Shown: positions 14,576 to 35,801 of the stretch, piece after piece | Layout of the letters: the number at the start of each line of letters is the position of its first letter | Position numbering within the stretch: position 1 is the stretch's first letter | Assembly: GCA_009758405.1 (NCBI GenBank) | Contig: WSBC01000016.1 | Span: 248,001-312,000, forward strand | Direction of reading: 5' to 3' | Source of the DNA: Methanobacteriota archaeon | GTDB taxonomy: Archaea; Thermoplasmatota; Thermoplasmata; Thermoplasmatales; ARK-15 | DNA length: 64,000 bases | Program-made: the position numbers and the translations under genes | Notes under the pieces: generated by a model | What the model was told of the DNA's origin: nothing | The model's input: the letters and a program-made list of their open reading frames with translations, nothing else | Databases searched by the model: none

Positions 14576-17560
14576 TTATTTTTTATGTAAAAGTGTTCCC
14601 TTTTCCTCTTTTTCTTCAACCTTTGTCTTCTTTTCGAATTTCTTGAATCCTCTTGTTCTTATCCTCCATATTATGAAGGCAACTATAACTATAACTGCTA
14701 TTGTTCCAATAATTATGGCTGGAAGTTTCCAAGCTGCCTGTTGGACGCTCACTATTTTTGACTGTGAATTATCACCAAGGTATATCTTTGGTTCCTGAGG
14801 TGAATAAACAGTAAACTTTATTGTATAATTTCCAGAGGACGGGGGTGTCCAGGTGTAATTTAGTTTTACAGTTTTGTTCACTGGTAGATTTGTATAACTA
14901 ACATTTCCCTCCAGTTTTCCATTTACATAAAACTGCAGATAATAAATGTTTGCAGGAGCATTACCAGTGTTGGTAACATTTACAAAGAACGTTGTCTGTG
15001 AACCCTCAGTAAGATTTCCCTTCCATGTGAAATTTAATAGAACCAAATCGGGTGCTACTGGAGATACCCTAAGTGTTTTATTTAATGTAGCATAATTGCC
15101 TGAAGCATCAGTTACATTCAATATTACATAATATGTTCCATATGTTGTGAATTTCAATGTTACCTTACTTTCATTCAAGGATCCTGATACTATAACAAAT
15201 GACGTTCCTGCTGCCTGTGTCTTACCTGTATTATTCTCTATTGTCCAGAGATAAGAGGCAATAGTGCCGTTCTGTGGATCATAGGATCCAGTTCCATTAA
15301 GTGTAATAGTCTGATTTACAAATATTTGGTTAACTGTTTCATTGTTACTTCCCTGGAAAACTATTACAGGGATTGGCTTAACAGTATCCTTTACATAAAC
15401 TTTAAGGGAGACAGTAAAGTTATTCCCTACCAGGTCACTGTATGTAACGTTGATCCAATCATATCCAGACCTTGTTGGATATGTAAATGTATAATTTATG
15501 TAATTTCCTATATATTTTGAGCCGCCTATATTCCATAGAACATTAACATTTTCTCCAGATTTTATTATGCCATTTAATGTATCCTTTAAATTACTGGCAA
15601 TAAGTGAAATCTCCTTATTCTGTAGAACTGTTATTGGTCCTAAAACTGCAGCTTTTCCTGAGGGTTTATATGTATTTGATGTACCATTATATGTGAAAAT
15701 AAGTGTAGAGTTTTCATTGTATAATCCCCAAGATGCTATCTCACCTGGTCCAATTGTATATTTTATCATAGATGTTGCATCTGGATATGCACCATCAGAA
15801 TATATCTTTATATTTGTATAGTTTGTATTGTTACCCACATCAGTTACCGTAAGATTCAAATTATGTATACCTGGGGATAAATCTGCGCTGACATTGGCAA
15901 GGCCTAACCCGCTCTTTATCACACCATCAAAATTCCATTTAAATGTCATTTCCTTCCAGGAATACTGTTGTCTAACCATATCTCTTACGGCGTTGCTTGC
16001 GTTGAAATATACGTTTTGATTCGCTTTTATTACAACTGTAAAGTTATTTGCACTTGAATTTAGTATATAATTTCCTGGCGAAATTCCAGACCAGTAAATT
16101 CCAAATGTGCTCTGGGATAAAATTATTTCAGGTTTCTCCCTTTTCTTGAGATCAAGAACAACTTGGCCCACAGTTGCATTCGTTATTTTTATAGTATTTA
16201 TATAACCTGTAGATGTTGCACCAACAACATTGTTTGATAATTCATATTCAGAAGGTATAGAGACAGTATAGTTATAAATGTTGTACGCGCCTAATGCAGA
16301 GTTTTGCAATACATTTAGATAAACTGGTATATAGCCATTTGAGGATATGAGTGAAGTAGCATTAATTGAAGAATTGTAATATACGGCATATAGATTGACA
16401 GTAAATCCATTGTAATTCAATGTAAAGGGCGTTAAAGAGGAGTTCTGGAGAGAATAAATGTAATTTCCTACAGTAATATAAGATCCTGAATAATTCTTTA
16501 TTGAATTCAGGAAGAATTTATTCAGAAATGTATCATTGAAGCCATTTAAATACATCTCATAATAAAGGATCCCTGTACCACTGTATGGCAAAACTTGTAG
16601 TACTGTCTTATTATTAAGTAAAAATGTGCAATTCATATATATATATTTGAAATCCTTTGAAAATGAATAGTTATAGTTATAATAGTTGTTCACCCTGTTT
16701 AAAAATATTGTTTGCGGGTAGCTGCCATTGAATGGAAGTGTCTTTATTGAATATCCATCTGCGGTCAGAACTATGGTATAATTAGAACCTCCTATGTAGA
16801 AATTGAAAACACCATTATTAAAGGTAAAGGTATCCCAAAGTGAAGAGTTATAGAATATATTCACATATATTGTATTATATATTATAGAACCCGTAGAGGA
16901 ATCCTTAACAATTCCAAATATATGTTTAAAATTTGAAAGATCTATATTTCCATTGTAAGGTGCGCTGATCTGTAAATAATAATTCTTTATTGCACCACCG
17001 CTTGTTGTGGAAATCTCTAAAATAAAAGGACCCTTCGTTGCATTGAATGTAATATTCCCTGCAGAACCTGTAATGCCAGAAAAGAATTGTAAACTATAAT
17101 AATCAAAAGCATATACCTGGTAGTTTGAGGCTGGAAGACCAGAGTTTTTAATAACGAGTGATACAGTTTCATTTATTGCTGTTCTAGGAACCGTGATTGT
17201 GGAGACGTTTGCTCCACTTGTATTTACAGTTATAGGTAAGAAGGCTCCACCATAAACAAAGCCACCAATTTTCTGTGGAGATACCTTCAAGATATAGTTC
17301 CCAATCTGGACATTACCAAAGTTTATCACTGGATTTGAAACTGTTGATGATATAATATTACCTGAATAATCCATTAAATTTACGCTCAGACCCTGAAGGA
17401 AGTCAACATCCCCAGTTTCCGTATCTTTATACATCACCACCAAACTCACATTTCCACTTTTTGTACTCTGTGCTGGAATCAATGGCACTAAGATAGAGCT
17501 CACTAGGATCACTGAAACAATCACTAAAGCCATTGCACTTTTTGCATCTAATGATTTCAA
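14576..17560 (-). CDS. Large secreted/surface protein with PKD and CARDB-like domains and C-terminal TM anchor
   Basis: N-terminal signal-like segment, PKD-like LNGTGSYDPQNGTIASYLWTIEN, CARDB-like region, C-terminal IIIGTIAVIVIVAFIIWRIRTRGFKK; rich in N-x-S/T. Confidence 0.85.
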   Translation of the reverse strand: MKSLDAKSAMALVIVSVILVSSILVPLIPAQSTKSGNVSLVVMYKDTETGDVDFLQGLSVNLMDYSGNIISSTVSNPVINFGNVQIGNYILKVSPQKIGGFVYGGAFLPITVNTSGANVSTITVPRTAINETVSLVIKNSGLPASNYQVYAFDYYSLQFFSGITGSAGNITFNATKGPFILEISTTSGGAIKNYYLQISAPYNGNIDLSNFKHIFGIVKDSSTGSIIYNTIYVNIFYNSSLWDTFTFNNGVFNFYIGGSNYTIVLTADGYSIKTLPFNGSYPQTIFLNRVNNYYNYNYSFSKDFKYIYMNCTFLLNNKTVLQVLPYSGTGILYYEMYLNGFNDTFLNKFFLNSIKNYSGSYITVGNYIYSLQNSSLTPFTLNYNGFTVNLYAVYYNSSINATSLISSNGYIPVYLNVLQNSALGAYNIYNYTVSIPSEYELSNNVVGATSTGYINTIKITNATVGQVVLDLKKREKPEIILSQSTFGIYWSGISPGNYILNSSANNFTVVIKANQNVYFNASNAVRDMVRQQYSWKEMTFKWNFDGVIKSGLGLANVSADLSPGIHNLNLTVTDVGNNTNYTNIKIYSDGAYPDATSMIKYTIGPGEIASWGLYNENSTLIFTYNGTSNTYKPSGKAAVLGPITVLQNKEISLIASNLKDTLNGIIKSGENVNVLWNIGGSKYIGNYINYTFTYPTRSGYDWINVTYSDLVGNNFTVSLKVYVKDTVKPIPVIVFQGSNNETVNQIFVNQTITLNGTGSYDPQNGTIASYLWTIENNTGKTQAAGTSFVIVSGSLNESKVTLKFTTYGTYYVILNVTDASGNYATLNKTLRVSPVAPDLVLLNFTWKGNLTEGSQTTFFVNVTNTGNAPANIYYLQFYVNGKLEGNVSYTNLPVNKTVKLNYTWTPPSSGNYTIKFTVYSPQEPKIYLGDNSQSKIVSVQQAAWKLPAIIIGTIAVIVIVAFIIWRIRTRGFKKFEKKTKVEEKEEKGTLLHKK

Positions 17561-23575: not shown

Positions 23576-24352
23576 CTATTTTTTCCATTTTGGGCTTCCG
23601 GGCCTTTTTTTACCAGCTGAATATAGGTAAATTATTGCCACTGTAAATATTACAATGCCTGCAAGTAGATACCAGAGCCAGTCATAGTTTGGTGGTTTAC
23701 CATAGTAGAAATAAATCGTAGTAACATTTGATCCTGTTGAAAATTTTACAAGGTTTGTATTAAGCCTTACACTTATAGTATTTACCCCATTTTCAAAACT
23801 ACCTATGTAATTGTATGTAACATTTGCAGTTGAGTTTGGGGAAATGGATTGAATTGTTGAATTTCCTATCAATTTACCGTTCAAAAAGAAGGAAACAGTG
23901 ATATTTTTTACCTCAAATGGCTGCAAGTTTTTAATCTTAACCTGAATAGGAATAGACTTTATAACATTCACTTGAATATAATTAATTGAAGTGACCTTCT
24001 GGGAGGAACCATTCACTATTCCTATTCCCATTACATATATGTATACTGTTTCAGGTGTGGAGGGAAATGTTATGTTAACATAGAAAACATTTGTAGAATA
24101 AGATAGCCCTGTTAACTCATTTGTTGTTCCACCACTTATATTGCTCCCTGTGAGAAAAAGATGATAACCATATCCATCAAAGTAGCCGTTTAAAACAATT
24201 TTATATTCATAGGTACCATTTGTTCCAACAGTTGTTGGTCCATATATTTCAACATTGAGACCTCTTGCCTGGGATATTGGAATTATCAATGAAAATATAA
24301 GTATAATAGCAATGAAAATTCCTATTTTTTTCATTTTTTCAGCCTCCTCCAT
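23576..24352 (-). CDS. Membrane-anchored secreted protein with Ig-like/CARDB-like domain
   Basis: N-terminal signal, beta-rich middle, C-terminal TM WLWYLLAGIVIFTVAIIYLYSAGKK; start overlaps end of STT3 gene. Confidence 0.75.
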   Translation of the reverse strand: MEEAEKMKKIGIFIAIILIFSLIIPISQARGLNVEIYGPTTVGTNGTYEYKIVLNGYFDGYGYHLFLTGSNISGGTTNELTGLSYSTNVFYVNITFPSTPETVYIYVMGIGIVNGSSQKVTSINYIQVNVIKSIPIQVKIKNLQPFEVKNITVSFFLNGKLIGNSTIQSISPNSTANVTYNYIGSFENGVNTISVRLNTNLVKFSTGSNVTTIYFYYGKPPNYDWLWYLLAGIVIFTVAIIYLYSAGKKRPGSPKWKK

Positions 24353-27300
24353 ATAATGAATGCAACGAGTGCAAATATAATTGCTGACGTAACTATTGTA
24401 AATTCAAAGAATAATGTCTCGTATGAAGGTATTACATATGTGACATTTGATGTTGTTACAATCGTAGAAATAGCACTTACAGTACCAATATTTATGTGTT
24501 TATGTGCTGTGTATTCTATTCCATGGGCTGTTGCAACAATAACTATATCAAAGGAAGGTGATGGTATAGGTTTATTCGGGGTGAGAACTACGGTAATAGT
24601 TTTTGAAGACCACGGATCAATATTCACGTATGGGGTGATATTTGAAGACCATCCAATGGACCTAAGTTCATTTGAGTTTATAATTGAGATAGAGTAATTC
24701 TCAGGAATATTTCCATTGTTGTTTATGGTAAGGTTTACATAAAGGGAATTCCCAGATGCATAGATATTAGCCCAGGTGAAAGATGTGTTTTGATATTCCG
24801 AAACATTTACCTTGATGCTTGTCTCCTGATAAAGTGAATTCTGATAGACACCCCTTATTGTAATTGTATTTAGGCCATAGCCTGCCTTATTTGAAACTAT
24901 TAATGTTAACTTTACTATTTTAGTATCACCAGGGTTAATGTATATATACCTATTAGAAAATGTCACATTCCAAATGCCTACAGATTCTAGAGTAACATTT
25001 TCAGGTCTATTTCCATTATTATTAATTGATATAGTATAATTGATTGAACTTCCAACAGTACCATTCTGAATGCCTGTAAGTGTAGTCATTCTTATGCTAT
25101 CAAAATTTACCCTCGAGAAGTATATTGTGTAGTTTTTGTTGGCAATTACATTCAGTTCATAATAAAGATTGTATTTTACAGTCTGATTATATTCAATTCT
25201 TTCTGCATTTGCAGTTAATGTATAATTGCCATAGGGTAAAATAAGGCTAAGCAATCCATTATGTGTAATTAATGTTATATTTCCGTATAATGAACTTAGG
25301 GTTACATTTGATCTGTATGTAGAATTTGCATAAATCAAGAGTAGGTTTATAAGATAACCCTTTTCCATTGAAATATTATACCAATAAATTGAATTATTTG
25401 ATATTTTAAGATTACCTATGAAGGCAAGATTTGCTGAATATGAATAAACTGTATAATTACCTATTGGAAGAAGATATGTGAAAGAACCATCTGATCCAGA
25501 TGGGACTTCATAATAAACATCCTTTCCGAAAAGATAAATTGTAACAAAGCTTAATCTTTCGCTGTTATATGTTATATACCCCTTCAAAGTTGAAAGATAT
25601 GGTTTTTCCTGTACGTTAATGTTAATTGTACCATTTGCATAAATGTATGATTCCTGGGATCCATAATATTCAATATTTGAAACTATCTTATAAACACTGA
25701 AAACATAATATCCAGGTGGAAGTAGGAGTATTGTTCCACCTTTCACTGGCTTTATGATCTTTAGCCCACCATAGTTTATTAAAAGATTGAACGTCTCACT
25801 GCTATTTATTAAGTTTATCTTAGTATAATACCCCTGAACCATGCTTATTTGCTGGACAATATTTTGTGAGGCATTAACAGTGCCTATGGAGGATAAATTA
25901 CCCGTGAATGTATAGTAGGTGTATTTTCCTAATGGTAATGAAACATTGTTTCCAGAATTAACAAGATTACCATTTTCATCAAACCAATATATATATTTTT
26001 GATTTGGGAATAGGCTAATTAGTGCATTCATTTTTATATTGAAATTAAGATTATAGTTTAATTGGCCTGTATTTATTGCTACTGCTGATGGTGAAATTGA
26101 TGCCTCTACATTTGAAGCAATAACACTTACATTATAATATCCAGATGGAAGTGTTATGTTATATTCTCCATTTATTACCTGTGCTTTGAAATTTCCACTC
26201 CTTGATGAAAATAGAATATAAAGATCACCCGCATATACATTGGGATATGAAACATGTCCATTTAGATTACATCCTCTTTCATTTACATATATTGTAACAT
26301 TATTATTTTCAATTTTGAAATTATTAAACTTAAATCCATAGGCAAAGGCATAAAATGCGAAGTTTTCACCTGTGCTGTAGAACTGGAATTTTCCATTAGG
26401 GGCTATGTTTGTTTCAAAATAGTAAAAATCACCAAGCTTTACAAATACAACAGCATTATTAATTATAGTTCCATTCCATTCTACTACACCACTAATTGTA
26501 TTTGTATTTTCTAAATAGAATTTTTCATTCAAGTTTCCAGTTAATATGAGCGTGGTATAATATGCATATGGTTGTGATGTTGTTGCATTGTAACCTACAA
26601 TTCCTACTGAGTATGTACCCTCAGGTACATAGGCACTGAAATATCCGCTTCCGTTTGTATATACCCTGAGAAAATTCATTCCATTAAATAGCATAATCTC
26701 AGCATCTGCTATGGGAACATTTCCATAGTAAACTTTACCTGAGAGGGTGATAGCCTTAGCAAGTGAAATATTAATTGTTGAGTTATCGTAGGGTACATAG
26801 CTTCCTATGTAAACATAATGATTATTATTATAAAAATAATCCACATAAACTGAGTAATAGCTCCTTGGAAGATTGAATGAAAATTCTCCATTTTTGTCAG
26901 TAATGGAAATCTGTGTATTGGAAAAGGTGAATTCATCCATAAACCTTACAACTGCCCCTTGAACAGGTATTCCATCTAGATAAACATCCCCCTTCAATGA
27001 ATATGATGTCAATAGCTCAAAATTATTTGTTGATGAGAGGTTCCAGGAATCAAAATTTACAGTCTTCTTGGGCGTATAATAACCATCCACATTTACCTCT
27101 ATTGAGTATGATCCGGGTATTACATAAGATAAATATGATCCATTCTTATCAGTAAATAAAGTATATGAAATAGGCCCATTAATTTTAACAGGTACATTGA
27201 TTGCAGGTGTACCATTCTGATAGAATACAACACCTTTAAGTATATCTCCATAGAGCTGAAGATCCTGTGTGACATTTGAATTTTGATTTATTGTTATTGT

Positions 27301-30300
27301 TTTTACAAATGCATAGGAGCCATTTGAATAAATGTAAACATTGTATTCTTCAGGTGCAAGATTTTTAATTGAAAAGTATCCATTCTTGTTTATATCTGTA
27401 GAATAATTCAACCCATATGTTTCATTTATTAGGAAAACCTTTCCAGAATTGATATAGGTCTTATTTCCAGAATTTGAAAAGTAAACAACACCATCAAGTG
27501 ATGAAGAATTAATTACAAAATTGTCATTAATATAATAATTTGGCAATCCATCAGGGTTTATGCCAGTAACAATCCTTGATGCCTGGGCATCGGACACGTA
27601 TATTTCCCTAGATGCAAGCAAATTTTTTTCATCAAGGAAAAGTTTGTTAAAGCCCCCACCTGTTGTAATCTGTATTGTATCATTCCCAGCAACCGCATAT
27701 ATCTGGTAATAACCCGATGAATTTGTTCTTGTGTATGTATGTGGAATACCATACTGATCATAAAGAGTAACGAGTACATTCGAAAGTGGGGTACCATCAG
27801 GTAATGTAACCCTGCCCTCTATAATAGCCCCTGGATAGAATTTCAATATAACAACGTCCTGTGGAAGTATCTGTCTTGCAGGTGGTATTAGGACCACAGT
27901 ACCATTGTTTGTCTTTTGAAGATAATATGCCTCCTGAAGGGGTACAGGTTTCCACGCATTTGTGTGATTTTGGTAATCCTTGTAAGGATTCCAGAATGAA
28001 ACAGAATATACAACTTCAAAATGTGTAAGATTCCATGCAAACATCACAGGATAATAGTTCATTTGGGATGATATCCCAGGAATGTAAGGTCCCATGCCTA
28101 AATTTAGACCCGAGTAGCCTACAAAGGCCCTATAAAGCATTGTATTGAAAAACATTGGATTATATGTAATATTATAACTAACAATCTGAACATTTGCAGG
28201 TATGTTGTTTAGAGAATAGGTGAGGCCATTTGATCCCACTGCAGTTATATTATAGAAATCGTATGGTATTATTTGACCACTTACTATGTTTGCCCTTCTA
28301 TCCGCCAGGTAGGCTGGCGCATAAAATATTCCTGTATTCATCCCAGAGAATGGAAACAGTCTATAGTCTGTGGCAAAATAATCTATGGAGTATCCAGTTA
28401 CCCTTTCCAAAAGTATGTAAAGATTTACAAGGGTGCTTTCACTATACTTATTTGCAAGATCTGCCTTTATCATTACATATTTGGCATTTTGGGGTGTAAT
28501 ATTCTTTGAATAAAGGCCATAATAATTTGGATTGTTCAGAATTTTATTAATATATGGTGATGGATTTTTTGATAAATTAGTATAATAATCCAAAATATTT
28601 TGCTCCTCCTGATATCCAAGATACTGTATGAGCAAGCTTTTTACCTCATTTCCATAGGTGGAATTCATTAGTGATGCATCAAGTATTCTTGATATTAAAA
28701 GAGCAACGGCTTCACTTTCATTTTGTGCTGTAATAAATTGCCCCGCTAACTGATAACCATTTTGGAAGTTATCAGCCACTGCAGGATGAAGACCCTGCTG
28801 AACATCCTGAAATCCATAGTCCCACCAGCTGAGAAAACCAGGTCTGTATTGAGGTGCCTGGTTATTATCCTGTTCGGATAACCATGCAAACGCCCCCTGC
28901 CAGGGATCTGTTGTATTTGTATCAAGCTGAATACCGTAGGCCCCAAGATACCAGGGTGGGGTATAATTTTGGGGTCTTAAAAATGATGGCATTACGTTGT
29001 AGATTTGCTTATCATATGTAGTCTTGTTATTATAGGGTATTGCTGCATCAACCGCACCCCACATATTTGGAAATACGATGAGAAATGCAACAACCGCTAT
29101 TGCCGCAATCTTAAGCCAAGGTCCTCTTTTTTTGAATGCATTCTTCCAGGATATTGATCTTATTAGATTACCTATCTCCTTTACATTTATTTTCTCTATT
29201 ATAATATCCAACATATAAGCTGCGGGTATAACAAATCCTGGCGAAGCATTAAATATGAATCTTGCAGCTGAGAATGCCATATATACTGAAACTATAGAGA
29301 ATATAACGAAGAAAAGGAAGTATTCATTTCTATTTCTTCTTATATCGTAAAGCATAAATGCAAGGCCCGCAACAAATATGAAGAAAACTCCCACACCAAC
29401 ATTCATTATTATCTGGCCTAGGGTAGGGGCCTGTGCCTCTGCTATAGTGGAATAAAGAGCACTTTTTACAAAGTAACCCTCTCCGGTATATATGTATCTC
29501 ATTATTGATGGGAAGAATAACTGACCCAGTACAGCTAATACAGCTATCACAGCTGCTGTAATTGAATATGTAAGAACCCAGGGCCATTTTGATGTGATTT
29601 CAAGGAATAGAATAAGAAAGACCATAAACAATGCTAAATAAAGTGGTGTATTGAACCAGGGTGTAATTGTTTTATCTAAAAGATAAAAGGGAAATGCAAC
29701 AGGGAATGAAAATAATATGAATATAACAGTGATCCATAAAATATGGAAGGAGCTTATGTTTCTAAATCTATTATAAAATATCTGAATAAGTAAATAAATT
29801 AATATAATTACTTCAACATAAACGAAACCTTGCCACATTGCACCAATTGTACCGAAGCTTATTCCTGAAAGGGCAGCATAGACGGTGGCACGCTTATTTT
29901 CATTAAAGAATTTTTTAATTCCATTTGACCATCCCTTTAAACTGAAATAATTGTCCACCCAAACAGATTTGTTAACATTTTTTAATGCCTTCAGGAAGAA
30001 ATAGAATACCCATATTGCAAAGAATAGAATTACATCATCATATCCGCCCCATGAAGCAACACTTCTCATCATATTTGAGGCGCTTGTTGCTATTAAAAAT
30101 GCAGAAATTATTCCTACTCTCCTATTGAATGCCTCCTTTCCTAGTAGATACATTGGGATTGCTATAAGGGCACCAAAAATTGCAGTTATCATCACAAGGG
30201 AATAACCAAGTGCATTATGCATGTTACCTACGAATGGGAGATAAAGATATGCCATGGCTATTACAGACCACTCAAAGAAAGGTGGTCTTGGATCGGGAAA

Positions 30301-30564
30301 GCCAACTGGATAATTTAGCATTGGATCCCAAAGAAGTTGATGTCCTGTGGCTACAATATAATCAATTACCCTTTCATGGTAAAATGTATCAGCTCCTCCA
30401 GAAATAGCAAAATTGTTTTCAACAGATGGACCAATGGCATAATAAGTTCTCAAAAATAGCCCAAGAAAAACTATTGATATCATTATGATCAATACCGAAA
30501 GATCCCTTTTTGTTTCCTGTGTAATACCAGGCTTAAAGCCCATATATGTTTTCACCATCCTCAC
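24331..30564 (-). CDS. aglB: Giant STT3/AglB-type oligosaccharyltransferase with long C-terminal Ig-like repeat extension
   Basis: N-terminal multi-TM STT3 with GADTFYHERV and WWDYG (codons 28813-28827), then about 8 carboxypeptidase-regulatory-like repeats, NEW3-like repeats and a terminal TM segment, in one 2077-aa ORF. Confidence 0.93.
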   Translation of the reverse strand: MRMVKTYMGFKPGITQETKRDLSVLIIMISIVFLGLFLRTYYAIGPSVENNFAISGGADTFYHERVIDYIVATGHQLLWDPMLNYPVGFPDPRPPFFEWSVIAMAYLYLPFVGNMHNALGYSLVMITAIFGALIAIPMYLLGKEAFNRRVGIISAFLIATSASNMMRSVASWGGYDDVILFFAIWVFYFFLKALKNVNKSVWVDNYFSLKGWSNGIKKFFNENKRATVYAALSGISFGTIGAMWQGFVYVEVIILIYLLIQIFYNRFRNISSFHILWITVIFILFSFPVAFPFYLLDKTITPWFNTPLYLALFMVFLILFLEITSKWPWVLTYSITAAVIAVLAVLGQLFFPSIMRYIYTGEGYFVKSALYSTIAEAQAPTLGQIIMNVGVGVFFIFVAGLAFMLYDIRRNRNEYFLFFVIFSIVSVYMAFSAARFIFNASPGFVIPAAYMLDIIIEKINVKEIGNLIRSISWKNAFKKRGPWLKIAAIAVVAFLIVFPNMWGAVDAAIPYNNKTTYDKQIYNVMPSFLRPQNYTPPWYLGAYGIQLDTNTTDPWQGAFAWLSEQDNNQAPQYRPGFLSWWDYGFQDVQQGLHPAVADNFQNGYQLAGQFITAQNESEAVALLISRILDASLMNSTYGNEVKSLLIQYLGYQEEQNILDYYTNLSKNPSPYINKILNNPNYYGLYSKNITPQNAKYVMIKADLANKYSESTLVNLYILLERVTGYSIDYFATDYRLFPFSGMNTGIFYAPAYLADRRANIVSGQIIPYDFYNITAVGSNGLTYSLNNIPANVQIVSYNITYNPMFFNTMLYRAFVGYSGLNLGMGPYIPGISSQMNYYPVMFAWNLTHFEVVYSVSFWNPYKDYQNHTNAWKPVPLQEAYYLQKTNNGTVVLIPPARQILPQDVVILKFYPGAIIEGRVTLPDGTPLSNVLVTLYDQYGIPHTYTRTNSSGYYQIYAVAGNDTIQITTGGGFNKLFLDEKNLLASREIYVSDAQASRIVTGINPDGLPNYYINDNFVINSSSLDGVVYFSNSGNKTYINSGKVFLINETYGLNYSTDINKNGYFSIKNLAPEEYNVYIYSNGSYAFVKTITINQNSNVTQDLQLYGDILKGVVFYQNGTPAINVPVKINGPISYTLFTDKNGSYLSYVIPGSYSIEVNVDGYYTPKKTVNFDSWNLSSTNNFELLTSYSLKGDVYLDGIPVQGAVVRFMDEFTFSNTQISITDKNGEFSFNLPRSYYSVYVDYFYNNNHYVYIGSYVPYDNSTINISLAKAITLSGKVYYGNVPIADAEIMLFNGMNFLRVYTNGSGYFSAYVPEGTYSVGIVGYNATTSQPYAYYTTLILTGNLNEKFYLENTNTISGVVEWNGTIINNAVVFVKLGDFYYFETNIAPNGKFQFYSTGENFAFYAFAYGFKFNNFKIENNNVTIYVNERGCNLNGHVSYPNVYAGDLYILFSSRSGNFKAQVINGEYNITLPSGYYNVSVIASNVEASISPSAVAINTGQLNYNLNFNIKMNALISLFPNQKYIYWFDENGNLVNSGNNVSLPLGKYTYYTFTGNLSSIGTVNASQNIVQQISMVQGYYTKINLINSSETFNLLINYGGLKIIKPVKGGTILLLPPGYYVFSVYKIVSNIEYYGSQESYIYANGTININVQEKPYLSTLKGYITYNSERLSFVTIYLFGKDVYYEVPSGSDGSFTYLLPIGNYTVYSYSANLAFIGNLKISNNSIYWYNISMEKGYLINLLLIYANSTYRSNVTLSSLYGNITLITHNGLLSLILPYGNYTLTANAERIEYNQTVKYNLYYELNVIANKNYTIYFSRVNFDSIRMTTLTGIQNGTVGSSINYTISINNNGNRPENVTLESVGIWNVTFSNRYIYINPGDTKIVKLTLIVSNKAGYGLNTITIRGVYQNSLYQETSIKVNVSEYQNTSFTWANIYASGNSLYVNLTINNNGNIPENYSISIINSNELRSIGWSSNITPYVNIDPWSSKTITVVLTPNKPIPSPSFDIVIVATAHGIEYTAHKHINIGTVSAISTIVTTSNVTYVIPSYETLFFEFTIVTSAIIFALVAFIIWRRLKK

Positions 30565-30651: not shown

Positions 30652-30789
30652 TTAATCTGAGGTGAATACCCTTTTAACGTTAGGTCTTTCCTTGTAAAAT
30701 ATTGTTGATCCGCATTCACAGGACAGATTTGGGGTGTTTATCTCCCCTTCATAAATCTTCCCGCAAACTGCGCATCTAAACCTGGACAT
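30652..30789 (-). CDS. rpoP: DNA-directed RNA polymerase subunit P (Rpc10)
   Basis: MSRFRCAVCGKIYEGEINTPNLSCECGSTIFYKERPNVKRVFTSD; true start inside the longer predicted ORF. Confidence 0.88.
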   Translation of the reverse strand: MSRFRCAVCGKIYEGEINTPNLSCECGSTIFYKERPNVKRVFTSD

Positions 30790-31036
30790 TTTCACCCTCC
30801 TTTGCCACTTCCTTTCTAATAAATGGAGTATATGCACCACCAGCCATTGTATATCCGCATCTTCTGCAGCTCCATATACCTGTGCCTACCCTTTTTAAGG
30901 TCTTATGGCCACATCTTGGGCATATATATGTATCTATCCTCATTTCCATTATCTCTTTCCATTGTTTTTTAGGCGCTACACCATAACGGGGACCAAAACG
31001 CGCAACTATACCAAGTTTTTTAGTTCTTTTGCTCAT
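30776..31036 (-). CDS. rpl37ae: Ribosomal protein L37Ae (eL43)
   Basis: [69 protein letters not shown]. Confidence 0.95.
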   Translation of the reverse strand: MSKRTKKLGIVARFGPRYGVAPKKQWKEIMEMRIDTYICPRCGHKTLKRVGTGIWSCRRCGYTMAGGAYTPFIRKEVAKEGENVQV

Positions 31037-31833
31037 TTTGAATCATCCCCTAATATGAATGTATTTCTTAAATATTTCCCAGATTCTATGGAAACTTTAA
31101 TTGTGTTCAATATCTCATCCTTTGTAAATGTCCCTTCAAGGCCCTTTTGAATTGCATTTATCTTCCCGTTTTCATCAGTGGTTATTGTGAGCCTTGAATG
31201 CGCTATGTTCTCCTCGTCCAGATTTGGATCGAGTACTATTTTATCACCTATTTTAGCAAAGGTGGTAGTGGCTGGATAATGCCTTATTGGCAGGGGAAAA
31301 TCCTCTCCTTGACCAAATCTGCTTGCTGGCACGGTTGAATTTTTCAGTGCAATTATAGACCCCAGGGCTGAAGCATCAAAGAGATTACCATCGTAATCAA
31401 GTACATGTATGTCAACAAAAACTATCCAGACAAGCTCTCCTTCCTTTATTACTAGCCTTTCAAGGTCAATGGCCTTGCTTTCTCTTATTCCGCGATCAAC
31501 TACCCTAGCTAGCTCTATTGCCTCTTCACCTGGAGGACCTGCCTCAAAGGTGGGAGAAGCAAGCGGGACAAGCTCAGCATTTGTGCTTAAAACACCAGTA
31601 TTCGGTGTATCTGGGAAGGGTTCACCCGTCTCTATCTTAACACCCACAAGTACTTGGGTGTTTCCCAATTTCACAAGAGCAGATCCATCTGCCCTTGGAA
31701 TAAAGTTCTTTATAACCTCAATCTTTCTAAAGTCATTTTGACTTCTTCCATCTATCCTTGATCCCTGGGAGAGCAGTTTTTGAATATAATCCCTCTTTAT
31801 TTCTGAAACAACACTCTCGGTAAATTTACTCAT
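31033..31833 (-). CDS. rrp42: Exosome complex subunit Rrp42
   Basis: RNase PH fold; [17 protein letters not shown]; exosome operon context. Confidence 0.95.
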
Positions 31834-32585
31834 TGTTGCTCATCCTCCTGTGCAAGGTTTATGTATTTTCTTCTTAATGCATCCTTCTGGAGCTCGTATA
31901 CCTTTAATGCAGCATCTATTGCCATGTTAAGTCCCATCTCCACCTCATCGAATGTCATATCACCATCCATTTGGAAAAGAACAATTTCTTTAGTTCTGGG
32001 TATAATTGCCACTGGTAGATCGGCCTGCCCATAGTTATCCTCTTCTTTGTTAAGATCAAGCACAACAGTATTGTCTACCTTACCAGCTGCACATCCTACA
32101 ATAAGATCCTTCATTGGTATCCCCGCATCAGCAAGGGCCACAGAAGCTGCAGTAAGACCTGCAATCCTTGTACCTGCATCTGCCTGAAGAACCTCTATGA
32201 AAACATCTATTGCAGTCCTCGGAAATTGCTCTAAAAGAACCACAGAACTCAAGGCATTTGAAATTACAAGTGATAATTCTATTGATCTTCTATCCGGTCC
32301 TGGCTTCTTTCTCTCATCAACAGAAAATGCGGCCATGTTGTATCTTGCTCTCAGTACTGCTCTGCTCGGATCCTGCATATGTTTTGGATATACCTCCCTG
32401 GGTCCATAAACGGCAGCTATGATCTTATTGTTACCCCATTCTATATATGCTGATCCATCTGCCCTTTCTAAAACACCTGCCTCTATCTTTATTGGCCTTA
32501 GTTCATTAAAGGATCTTCCATCAATCCTTTTTCCATTTTCATCAATTAATTTTATATCCTTATTAATTCCTCCCATTTTCATCAT
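31830..32585 (-). CDS. rrp41: Exosome complex exonuclease Rrp41
   Basis: [50 protein letters not shown]. Confidence 0.96.
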
Positions 32586-33261
32586 TCTCCTTTTTATTTT
32601 TTGAAAGAAAATCTTTTACCCTATCAGTAAGTCCTATTATGTGAGCTTCTCTTTCTATCAACCTTATTGCACCAACAACCTTCAATATTGAATCAATAGA
32701 TCCATCTATCCATATAATACCATTCTGCCCTACATATATTTTTGAATTTGTCATATCCTTAAGAATTTTTATCATTGATCCATCCTTGCCAATGATCCTT
32801 GGAACCTTTGTAGGCGACACAGTAATTACATGGCCACCCTCAAGTTTCCTTAAACCTGGCTCCTTCATTGTAAGCCATACCTGTTTTACCTCATTCACGC
32901 TCATAATCTTTGCAATAATAGTATCACCTACGTTAAGGTATTTTCCTGTGTCACCAAAATCAACCTTCCATGGTGTATCATTTACATGAAGAGGAGCGAG
33001 ATAAGGCGCATTTATGTCTACTACCCAGTTTGATGGCATTATGTCCACTACCTTACCTATCACCTTATCACCCTTCTGTGGCTGATACCTTCCTGAAAGA
33101 GGTATTATGTTTAAATAACCAGATTTCACAGTTTTTACTCCAAGGTATTCCACATAAGCTTTTCCATTCTCAATGTATATTCCATTGCCAGGTTTATTGC
33201 CCATAAGATCTATTTCTTCACCTGGCAAAACAATTTCTCTAATCTTCTCCATATTTTTCAC
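32563..33261 (-). CDS. rrp4: Exosome RNA-binding subunit Rrp4
   Basis: S1 and KH domains; [35 protein letters not shown]. Confidence 0.95.
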
Positions 33262-33956
33262 CCTTTCAAAATTTTTGTTTCAATGTTTCCATGAGTCTTT
33301 TTATTTAACATATCAAAAAACTCCGCCTGCATACCTGCAGGTATCTCAACTACAGCCCTCCAAGATCCATCATCACCCCATTCATCCTTCACAATAGTCC
33401 CCATCTTAACAAGGTCCTGATATATCTTACCATAACCATCTGCACTAACTTTTATTTCAATTTTTGTCTTTTCAATCCTTATTGGGATTATTGCCTTTAT
33501 TGCCTTAAGTACAATCGGTATTTGCTCTTCAACACTTTTCATAGGATCAATGTGTACCTTTGCCTCTTCTATTGCCTTTTCAATTCTTTGTGGGGGATGC
33601 GGTGCATTTGTCTGTGGATTTATTGCGTTTTTTGCAATCTCATTTATTATTTGCCTTTTCTTTTCCTCAAGCATCTTCCTTCTTTGGTCAGTAGTCAGCT
33701 GTACCTGGCCCTTTAAGATTATCTGTTTAGCAACCTCATTTATATCAGTTGTTCCAAAAACCTCCTTTAAAACCTCTTCTCCTACCTTGTCCCCCTTCCT
33801 TGCATCCTTAAAGACTTCATCTATTACCATATAATCTACTACATTAACCTGCTTTCCAGATTTTAATAAATCTATCAATTTTGGGTCTATAAGAATCTCT
33901 AACCTATGACCCTTAGCTTCATATCTGGCAACGATAGAATCCTCAATCCTTACCAT
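33258..33956 (-). CDS. SBDS ribosome maturation protein
   Basis: LRP family; [47 protein letters not shown]. Confidence 0.95.
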
Positions 33957-33966
33957 ATAATATCAC

Positions 33967-34680
33967 TTAGCCTAGTTTTTTAATGTAAGCCTCAGTCTCC
34001 TCCTGGGGTAATATCCTGAAATTTGTGCCCCTTGTAATAAGACCTATCTCCACCACCATCGGCTGACTGGGATCCTCACTTACCTGTTTCATTGCCTTTA
34101 AAGCTAACATTATTGCATCATCTTTTTGCATATTTTCCTGATATTCCTTTTCAAATATTGCCATTACTGTTTCCCTGCCCCTGCCTATACAAGAGGCCTT
34201 GTAACCAGTAAAGGCACCACTTGGTTCAGTCTCAAAAAGGTATATGTCAGTATCATCGATCCCCGCTATTAGGAGTGATGTACCAAAGGGTCTCACACCT
34301 CCATACTGTGTATATTGTTGTACATAGTCACTGATCTTTTTTACAAGAGGTTCAACACCAATTTTCTCGCCATAAGTAACCTTCTCCACTTGGGCAGTCA
34401 CCCTTGCATAATCCACTAGTACTCTGGCATCGGCCATTAGACCAGATGATGCGGCACCAATATGCTCATCTACAATGTATATCTTTTCAATACTTTTAGG
34501 TTCTATAAGCCTGCTCCTCACCTTTTTATCAATTATTAAGGCAACGCCATCCTTGAACTTGATCCCTATGGTAGTTGATCCCATCTTTACAGCTTCTCTT
34601 GCATACTCTACCTGATAAAGTCTACCCTCTGGAGAAAATACAGTTATTGCGCGATCATATGCCATTTGGGCCGGTTGCAT
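33967..34680 (-). CDS. psmA: Proteasome alpha subunit
   Basis: AYDRAITVFSPEGRLYQVEYAREAVKMGSTTIGIKFKDGV. Confidence 0.96.
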   Translation of the reverse strand: MQPAQMAYDRAITVFSPEGRLYQVEYAREAVKMGSTTIGIKFKDGVALIIDKKVRSRLIEPKSIEKIYIVDEHIGAASSGLMADARVLVDYARVTAQVEKVTYGEKIGVEPLVKKISDYVQQYTQYGGVRPFGTSLLIAGIDDTDIYLFETEPSGAFTGYKASCIGRGRETVMAIFEKEYQENMQKDDAIMLALKAMKQVSEDPSQPMVVEIGLITRGTNFRILPQEETEAYIKKLG

Positions 34681-34721
34681 AATTTATCACCTCAGTATCT
34701 AATTCCTAAACATCTTTTACT

Positions 34722-35801
34722 TTATAAATCTTTCATTTTTAAAATTTCAATAATTTTTGGAAGGGTACATGTAGTTTTTATACCTACGGGCGAGAATTGT
34801 GTCCTTGAGGCAGGGTATCCATTAAATCTAAGCTTATATATCAAATAATCAATTTTAGGCATCTTTCCTCCCATTCTTTTACCAATTTCTTCTGTTGAAT
34901 AAAAAAATAGAAGATTTTCATAGGGCGCAATTTTTAAAATATTAATTATATGATCCCTTTTCTCAATATTTTCTGGTATTTTATAATTGTTAATTATTTC
35001 ATGCAAGTTTCCTATCCAAAGTGGGCCTATTTTTCTCCAATAACCCATTTTATTTATTTCTTGAACATATGAAAGTGTATTCATCACCCATTTTTTTCCC
35101 TTCTTTACCCTAAAAAATATCCTATAATAATATCCACCAAAGTATGTTAAAAGTGGGATTATACCAAATCCATTTTCTGCTGCTCTATTTGCAATGTAGG
35201 ATATTAAAATTCTAGTACCTACTTCATGTTTGAGATAACCTGATTCTGGTGTTGAATGGTATAGATAAAAGGTTTTATGTGGATAGGTACCTGCTAAATT
35301 GGCAATGTCTGTTGATGTAACACCAATTATTCCATTGTTTTTAATTGATTTTAATGCAGAGTCCAAAAATGGTACAGGACTTCCATATGGATCAATATCA
35401 ATGTAATCATAATATCCATCTGGAATTTGTCTTTCGGCATTGAAATTCGTAATATACGCATTTGAATTATTAATATCCCTATTTTTAAATATGTATTTTA
35501 AAGCCTCCTTGTTCCTTTCATTTATTGTTACATTAAGATTACACTCTTTTTCTATCCTGAATCCCCTTATCCCTGATCCCCCTAGAAGATCAAGGGCATT
35601 TTTTCCATTTTTTAGATAATTTTTAATAATGAAGATTGTCAAATCTCTGGATATTACTTGTGATTTTGAATAGTAGGCAGTTGATTTTTTACCTGGACCC
35701 TTATCAAAAATTACAGGTAACTCAGCCTCCACTAATCCCTCCTTCACCCTCATAATCAGCTTCACCCTATACTCAGATTTGTTCGCCCTTAATAATTCCA
35801 A
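34722..35801 (-). CDS. trm1: tRNA (guanine(26)-N2)-dimethyltransferase Trm1
   Basis: DLLGGSGIRGFRIEKE, DIDPYGSPVPFLDSAL, GVTSTDIANLAG. Confidence 0.93.
   Translation of the reverse strand: MELLRANKSEYRVKLIMRVKEGLVEAELPVIFDKGPGKKSTAYYSKSQVISRDLTIFIIKNYLKNGKNALDLLGGSGIRGFRIEKECNLNVTINERNKEALKYIFKNRDINNSNAYITNFNAERQIPDGYYDYIDIDPYGSPVPFLDSALKSIKNNGIIGVTSTDIANLAGTYPHKTFYLYHSTPESGYLKHEVGTRILISYIANRAAENGFGIIPLLTYFGGYYYRIFFRVKKGKKWVMNTLSYVQEINKMGYWRKIGPLWIGNLHEIINNYKIPENIEKRDHIINILKIAPYENLLFFYSTEEIGKRMGGKMPKIDYLIYKLRFNGYPASRTQFSPVGIKTTCTLPKIIEILKMKDL

Follow-up and report, generated by a model that had tools for sequence, protein, structure and literature searches.

The aglB-XL locus

The locus lies in a window of 64,000 nucleotides (the whole stretch of DNA analysed, positions 248,001 to 312,000 of contig WSBC01000016.1 from an archaeon of the order Thermoplasmatales; all positions below are those of the window). 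Two genes are found there on the reverse strand: aglB-XL, encoding a giant oligosaccharyltransferase (OST) of the AglB/STT3 type, and directly downstream a gene for a small type I membrane protein, here called the partner (Table 1). The aglB-XL frame is a single uninterrupted ORF, and because its homologues begin at the third codon, an ATG two codons past the GTG, the ATG is the likelier start. The ORF is evidently real rather than a chance artefact, since 60 aligned homologues are colinear with it and its first array module is conserved like the catalytic core. Upstream, at positions 30776-35801 (-), L37Ae-, Rrp42-, Rrp41-, Rrp4-, SBDS- and proteasome-alpha-like ORFs, read by eye, resemble an exosome/proteasome cluster.

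Table 1. Features of the aglB-XL locus (window coordinates; residue numbers count from the GTG).
Feature	Position	Strand	Basis or remark
Partner gene, 252 aa	23576..24334	-	Signal peptide, Ig-like domain, CARDB domain, TM, basic tail ending PKWKK
4-nt ATGA overlap, aglB-XL stop/partner ATG	24331..24334	-	Sequence; same overlap in 87/108 loci
aglB-XL, giant AglB/STT3 oligosaccharyltransferase CDS	24331..30564	-	2077 aa from GTG; likelier start ATG at 30558
C-terminal TM helix and short basic tail, residues 2048-2076	24337..24423	-	Model, hydrophobicity; conserved in homologues
Two NEW3/Ig-like modules, residues about 1810-2025	24490..25137	-	Model strands; NPCBM_assoc NEW3 in 6/34 members
Array of about 11-12 CarboxypepD_reg/transthyretin-like modules, residues 913-1806	25147..27828	-	Pfam, model, conservation profile
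C-terminal globular catalytic core with WWDYG, residues 511-905	27850..29034	-	PDB matches to AglB C-terminal domains; model
WWDYG motif, residues 580-584	28813..28827	-	Invariant in 34-sequence alignment
STT3 multi-TM catalytic domain, residues about 15-510	29035..30522	-	Pfam STT3 58-446; model helices; AfAglB match
First catalytic motif GADTFYH, residues 57-63	30376..30396	-	D59 invariant in 34-sequence alignment

The catalytic core resembles characterised AglB

The N-terminal part of AglB-XL was assigned to STT3 by Pfam (PF02516, residues 58-446, 43.5 bits and thus above the curated cut-off of 24.5), and both D59 and the whole of W580-G584 are invariant across 34 aligned members of the order. 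A model of the core (residues 1-1110; pLDDT 87.4, pTM 0.81) found its best structural match in A. fulgidus AglB (7e9s; E 6.4e-26, TM 0.68 on target). The first-pass annotation, made from the DNA letters, had described one open ORF with an STT3/AglB core recognised by GADTFYH and WWDYG, and the Pfam match, the invariant motifs and the AfAglB-like fold bear this out. The best NCBIfam match, TIGR04154, reached 208.4 bits over residues 26-716, far under its cut-off of 450, and membership of that subfamily was rejected.

The catalytic part superposes on that of archaeal AglB (A. fulgidus AglB-L, 7e9s/3wak), with which it shares the STT3 fold, the first-motif Asp, TIXE and WWDYG. The last residue of A. 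fulgidus AglB is 868, however, and that enzyme is described as single-subunit (PMC8342417), whereas AglB-XL is longer by ~1,170 residues, is anchored in the membrane a second time and has a partner gene coupled to it.

The extension is a folded, sequon-rich extracellular array

Pfam matched CarboxypepD_reg in AglB-XL (E 3.4e-35), and NPCBM_assoc NEW3 was recovered in six of the 34 order members. The model of the extension (residues 890-2077; mean pLDDT 86.8) was found to consist entirely of beta-sandwich modules with a TM helix at the end, and pLDDT fell below 50 only at construct residues 1-5 and in a short segment before the TM; its pTM was low (0.47), as expected for a flexible chain of modules. 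The only hydrophobic segment past the core is residues 2048-2076. The first-pass annotation had counted about eight regulatory-like modules, two NEW3-like modules and a terminal TM helix; the last two items stand, while the model contains roughly 11-12 transthyretin (TTR)-like modules. It had also called the extension sequon-rich, in agreement with the 43 sequons counted in residues 906-2045 against 23.8 +/- 4.1 in shuffles.

Module 1 (residues 901-1000) is conserved to the same degree as the catalytic core in the 60 aligned homologues, and the later modules show 13-37% identity in order- and class-wide comparisons. Foldseek matches of the array were generic Ig-type arrays (TM about 0.1), and structure therefore names no function for it.

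Sequons are enriched 2.23-fold in the array within the order, 2.0-fold in other intact class members and 2.53-fold in the partner class-wide, and sequons at N615, N961 and N1047 are present in 34 of 34 order members. The array might offer acceptor sequons to the catalytic site joined to it, or hold them in position, thus acting as a regulator or as a presenter of substrate; or it might be the principal acceptor itself. These figures would fit such a role, as would a first module conserved like the core, but the enrichment may just reflect an extracellular site in a strongly N-glycosylating organism, and one family (f11, below) keeps array and partner after losing the catalytic motifs, so that presentation cannot be the whole role. 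As the principal explanation it appears unlikely.

A further possibility, raised in the first-pass annotation, is that AglB-XL is cleaved to give an independent OST and a surface protein. No support for it was found among the loci read and the models: the array has its own C-terminal TM, no disordered linker follows the core in the model, and none of the loci read has the gene divided into two ORFs where core and array meet. We consider processing highly improbable.

A membrane protein gene is coupled to aglB-XL throughout the class

The partner, ~255 aa class-wide, was placed by an automatic search at 108 of the 113 class loci with enough sequence, with the exact 4-nt overlap in 87; of the other five loci, four hold a matching ORF whose start is slightly displaced and one is a fragment. 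This downstream gene had gone unmentioned in the first-pass annotation. CARDB is present in 42 of 42 aligned partner members, and the PDB matches of the partner are generic CARDB and antibody domains. The partner also adjoins AglB in L160 and L168, tool-ranked as outside the class. In the phylum's short AglBs (about 1,130-1,430 aa), the C-terminal TM and the partner are both missing.

Eleven giant AglBs that have no adjacent partner terminate in a CARDB-TM segment matching the partner profile (8.5-53 bits), while a CARDB match to that profile was found in none of 61 partner-type AglBs (one matches in the TM only). This complementarity hints at a shared function of the partner and the AglB end; it is only suggestive, and does not prove fusion, because terminal CARDB-TM segments are frequent on surface proteins of these genomes. 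A tryptophan/basic tail was rejected as a diagnostic of fusion, being found also on AglB tails in 29 of 108 loci. Elsewhere in the window an ORF of 994 aa (14576-17560, -) ends in a partner-like CARDB-TM stretch (G000:C1:262639-262995) and is probably another surface protein.

Archaeal OSTs have been stated to be single-subunit enzymes (PMC8342417). The class-wide coupling of a partner gene suggests otherwise, and the partner is probably a second subunit of the OST; a physical complex between AglB-XL and the partner would be in keeping with this gene coupling.

The extended form is usual in class Thermoplasmata

A PF02516 search identified AglB-XL as the sole STT3 of its own genome. Homologues, most of them full length, are present in 58 of 61 relatives' genomes, and 233 of 300 genomes of class Thermoplasmata match PF02516. 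Complete frames in the class are almost all about 2,030-2,440 aa (the exception being family f11, at 1,830-2,030 aa), and the extension is colinear across the class (60 homologues, coverage >90%). Judged from these frames, the extended colinear AglB is the usual single STT3 form throughout the class. The length and distribution searches covered the phylum, Thermoplasmatota; in the rest of it AglB lengths run from about 900 to 3,277 aa, forms of 2,300-3,280 aa being present outside the class. The giant partner-bearing forms group together in a quick core tree (SH-aLRT support only), and a plasmid search with the catalytic core gave no match.

In three phylum-level genomes (L161, L162 and L177 in G400, G354 and G402), AglBs of 3,124-3,198 aa with a C-terminal TM are followed by a one-TM protein of ~375-410 aa that is unrelated to the partner profile. 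One genome carries a separate second STT3-like frame of 471 aa (G031:C2:14429-15733) besides a full-length giant AglB.

The first-pass annotation had suspected a non-standard AglB architecture, to be given up if the arrangement proved common and already described. The suspicion holds against characterised AglBs, which have no such array, but within the class this is the usual STT3 form. The AglB enzyme is of a known kind; of the extended form, the partner and the pseudo-OST form of family f11 no description was found in the open literature searched, where published mentions are limited to AglB being present (PMC5155288, PMC10354927, PMC3750248).

Family f11 outside genus g80 has lost the catalytic motifs and kept the array and the partner

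Family f11 is a methanogen family, since its genomes carry mcrA and include one matching ISO4-H5, and is probably Methanomethylophilaceae. A giant AglB homologue is present in 60 of its 61 genomes. All 44 proteins read from outside g80 lack WWDYG and the second acidic motif, and their TIXE is degraded, with an acidic residue left in some. The first-motif Asp is lost in 35 and kept in eight of the 43 of these proteins that are readable there. In genus g80 (L063, L219 and L220) all catalytic motifs are intact, and the motif loss thus took place inside f11, once or more often. A sensitive profile found no second STT3 in ten pseudo-type f11 genomes, all core matches falling inside the giant protein. 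Catalytic activity has presumably been lost in f11 outside g80.

Both other parts were retained. A stop-to-stop search detected the partner downstream of the giant gene in 41 of 41 f11 loci with enough downstream sequence. Genus g59 shows clear purifying selection (dN/dS 0.10-0.16), and constraint is weaker in genus g73, where the dN/dS of the array is 0.59-0.66.

It could be argued that the f11 proteins still glycosylate through altered motifs, as the eight proteins with the first-motif Asp and the acidic residue near TIXE in some might indicate. WWDYG mutations abolish glycosylation, however (PMC2952790), and here WWDYG and the second acidic motif are missing in every protein read outside g80. 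Sequon enrichment in the pseudo forms is moreover down to 1.2-fold in the array and 1.27-fold in the partner, and host-associated Methanomassiliicoccales have few glycosyltransferases (PMC9723798), a low number that fits reduced surface glycosylation. Continued activity is thus very doubtful. Note that the intact g80 proteins, unlike other intact groups, show no array enrichment either (0.88, n=3), and the link between catalysis and sequon enrichment is therefore imperfect.

As gut methanogens retain the arm and the partner after decay of the catalytic site, the arm probably serves a purpose separate from sugar attachment. One candidate for that purpose is a surface coat, with AglB doubling as part of the unordered glycoprotein layer of Thermoplasmatales that have no S-layer and the partner as another coat protein. 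Such a layer, unordered and probably of glycoprotein, has been seen by cryo-ET on both C. divulgatum and O. meridianum (PMC12448462). The length, extracellular site and sequon richness of the array would suit a coat, and retention without catalysis would fit one equally well. The extended form does not track the absence of an S-layer, however, being found in many other lineages and in a genome matched to A. boonei, an organism with an S-layer; the idea that the array replaces the S-layer is disfavoured. Furthermore, the gene is present once per genome and encodes an enzyme, normally of low abundance, and the conservation of module 1 resembles that of an enzyme interface. The coat reading is improbable on balance.

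NOMO and TRAP as analogies

The nearest working analogies for the array and the partner are eukaryotic, namely NOMO and TRAP; kinship was tested in both cases and was not shown. NOMO, of the BOS complex in the multipass translocon, likewise has tandem transthyretin/prealbumin-like modules on the extracytoplasmic side and a C-terminal TM, but it contains no STT3 domain. The extension profile matches NOMO2 (E 6e-29), and Pfam NOMO_5th was detected in 20 of 34 members. Orthology was rejected, as the match is non-colinear (profile 157-358 matches several NOMO modules), and NOMO is absent from the best 50 fold matches of the array. The likeness would be one of module type, and is kept as an analogy only.

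TRAP alpha/beta and the OST accessory subunits of eukaryotes have the same layout as the partner, with a signal peptide, an Ig-like extracellular part, one TM and a short basic tail. The partner was rejected as a TRAP homologue, since Pfam TRAP_beta matched one of 42 members (E 0.01) and the PDB matches are generic.

A proposed two-gene OST with a separable scaffold

From the anatomy of the protein, its class-wide conservation, the gene coupling and the motif loss with retained array and partner, we infer that the locus encodes a two-gene OST module with an extracellular scaffold role separable from catalysis, a reading to which we give a probability of about 0.5. The N-terminal ~905 residues would act as AglB, which is predicted to transfer a lipid-linked glycan onto Asn-X-Ser/Thr on the outer side of the membrane. 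The array would make up a folded arm outside the cell with a membrane anchor at either end, namely the STT3 domain and the C-terminal TM, and module 1 would probably be packed against the catalytic core. The type I membrane protein encoded downstream and coupled through the 4-nt overlap would probably be the second subunit. Array and partner would most likely act as scaffold or chaperone to secretory and membrane proteins as these emerge and are glycosylated in their company, and in one methanogen family the catalytic part would have decayed while the scaffold was kept. Among accounts of a folded, doubly anchored arm and a coupled membrane partner, both retained where catalysis is not, this is the simplest.

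The first-pass annotation had guessed that the enzyme carries its own acceptor or scaffold, and scaffold is the better half of that guess. Self-acceptance is compatible with the 2.0-2.2-fold sequon enrichment of the array, but cannot be all that the array does, because it has been kept in proteins that seem to have lost catalysis and in which the enrichment is nearly gone (1.2-fold). Alongside a scaffold role, the array could possibly also serve as coat material or as self-acceptor.

A more far-reaching version of the scaffold reading would make the Thermoplasmata OST a two-subunit, translocon-associated machine with a built-in NOMO-like chaperone arm, of which the gut methanogens keep a catalytically dead form that is chaperone/scaffold only; this we put forward tentatively, as somewhat unlikely. 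An enzyme with so large a folded arm and a coupled second membrane protein, shared by a whole class, would change the single-subunit picture of archaeal OST. It would also provide a simple model of how the eukaryotic OST and translocon acquired the accessory domains that surround them on the extracytoplasmic side. With its decayed motifs and intact arm and partner, family f11 is a natural experiment in which a separate function of the arm is testable, and complete genomes as well as isolates or enrichments exist for organisms among its members. Pseudo-OSTs that keep array and partner are encoded at loci L178-L204, L206, L207, L208-L218 and L221-L224.
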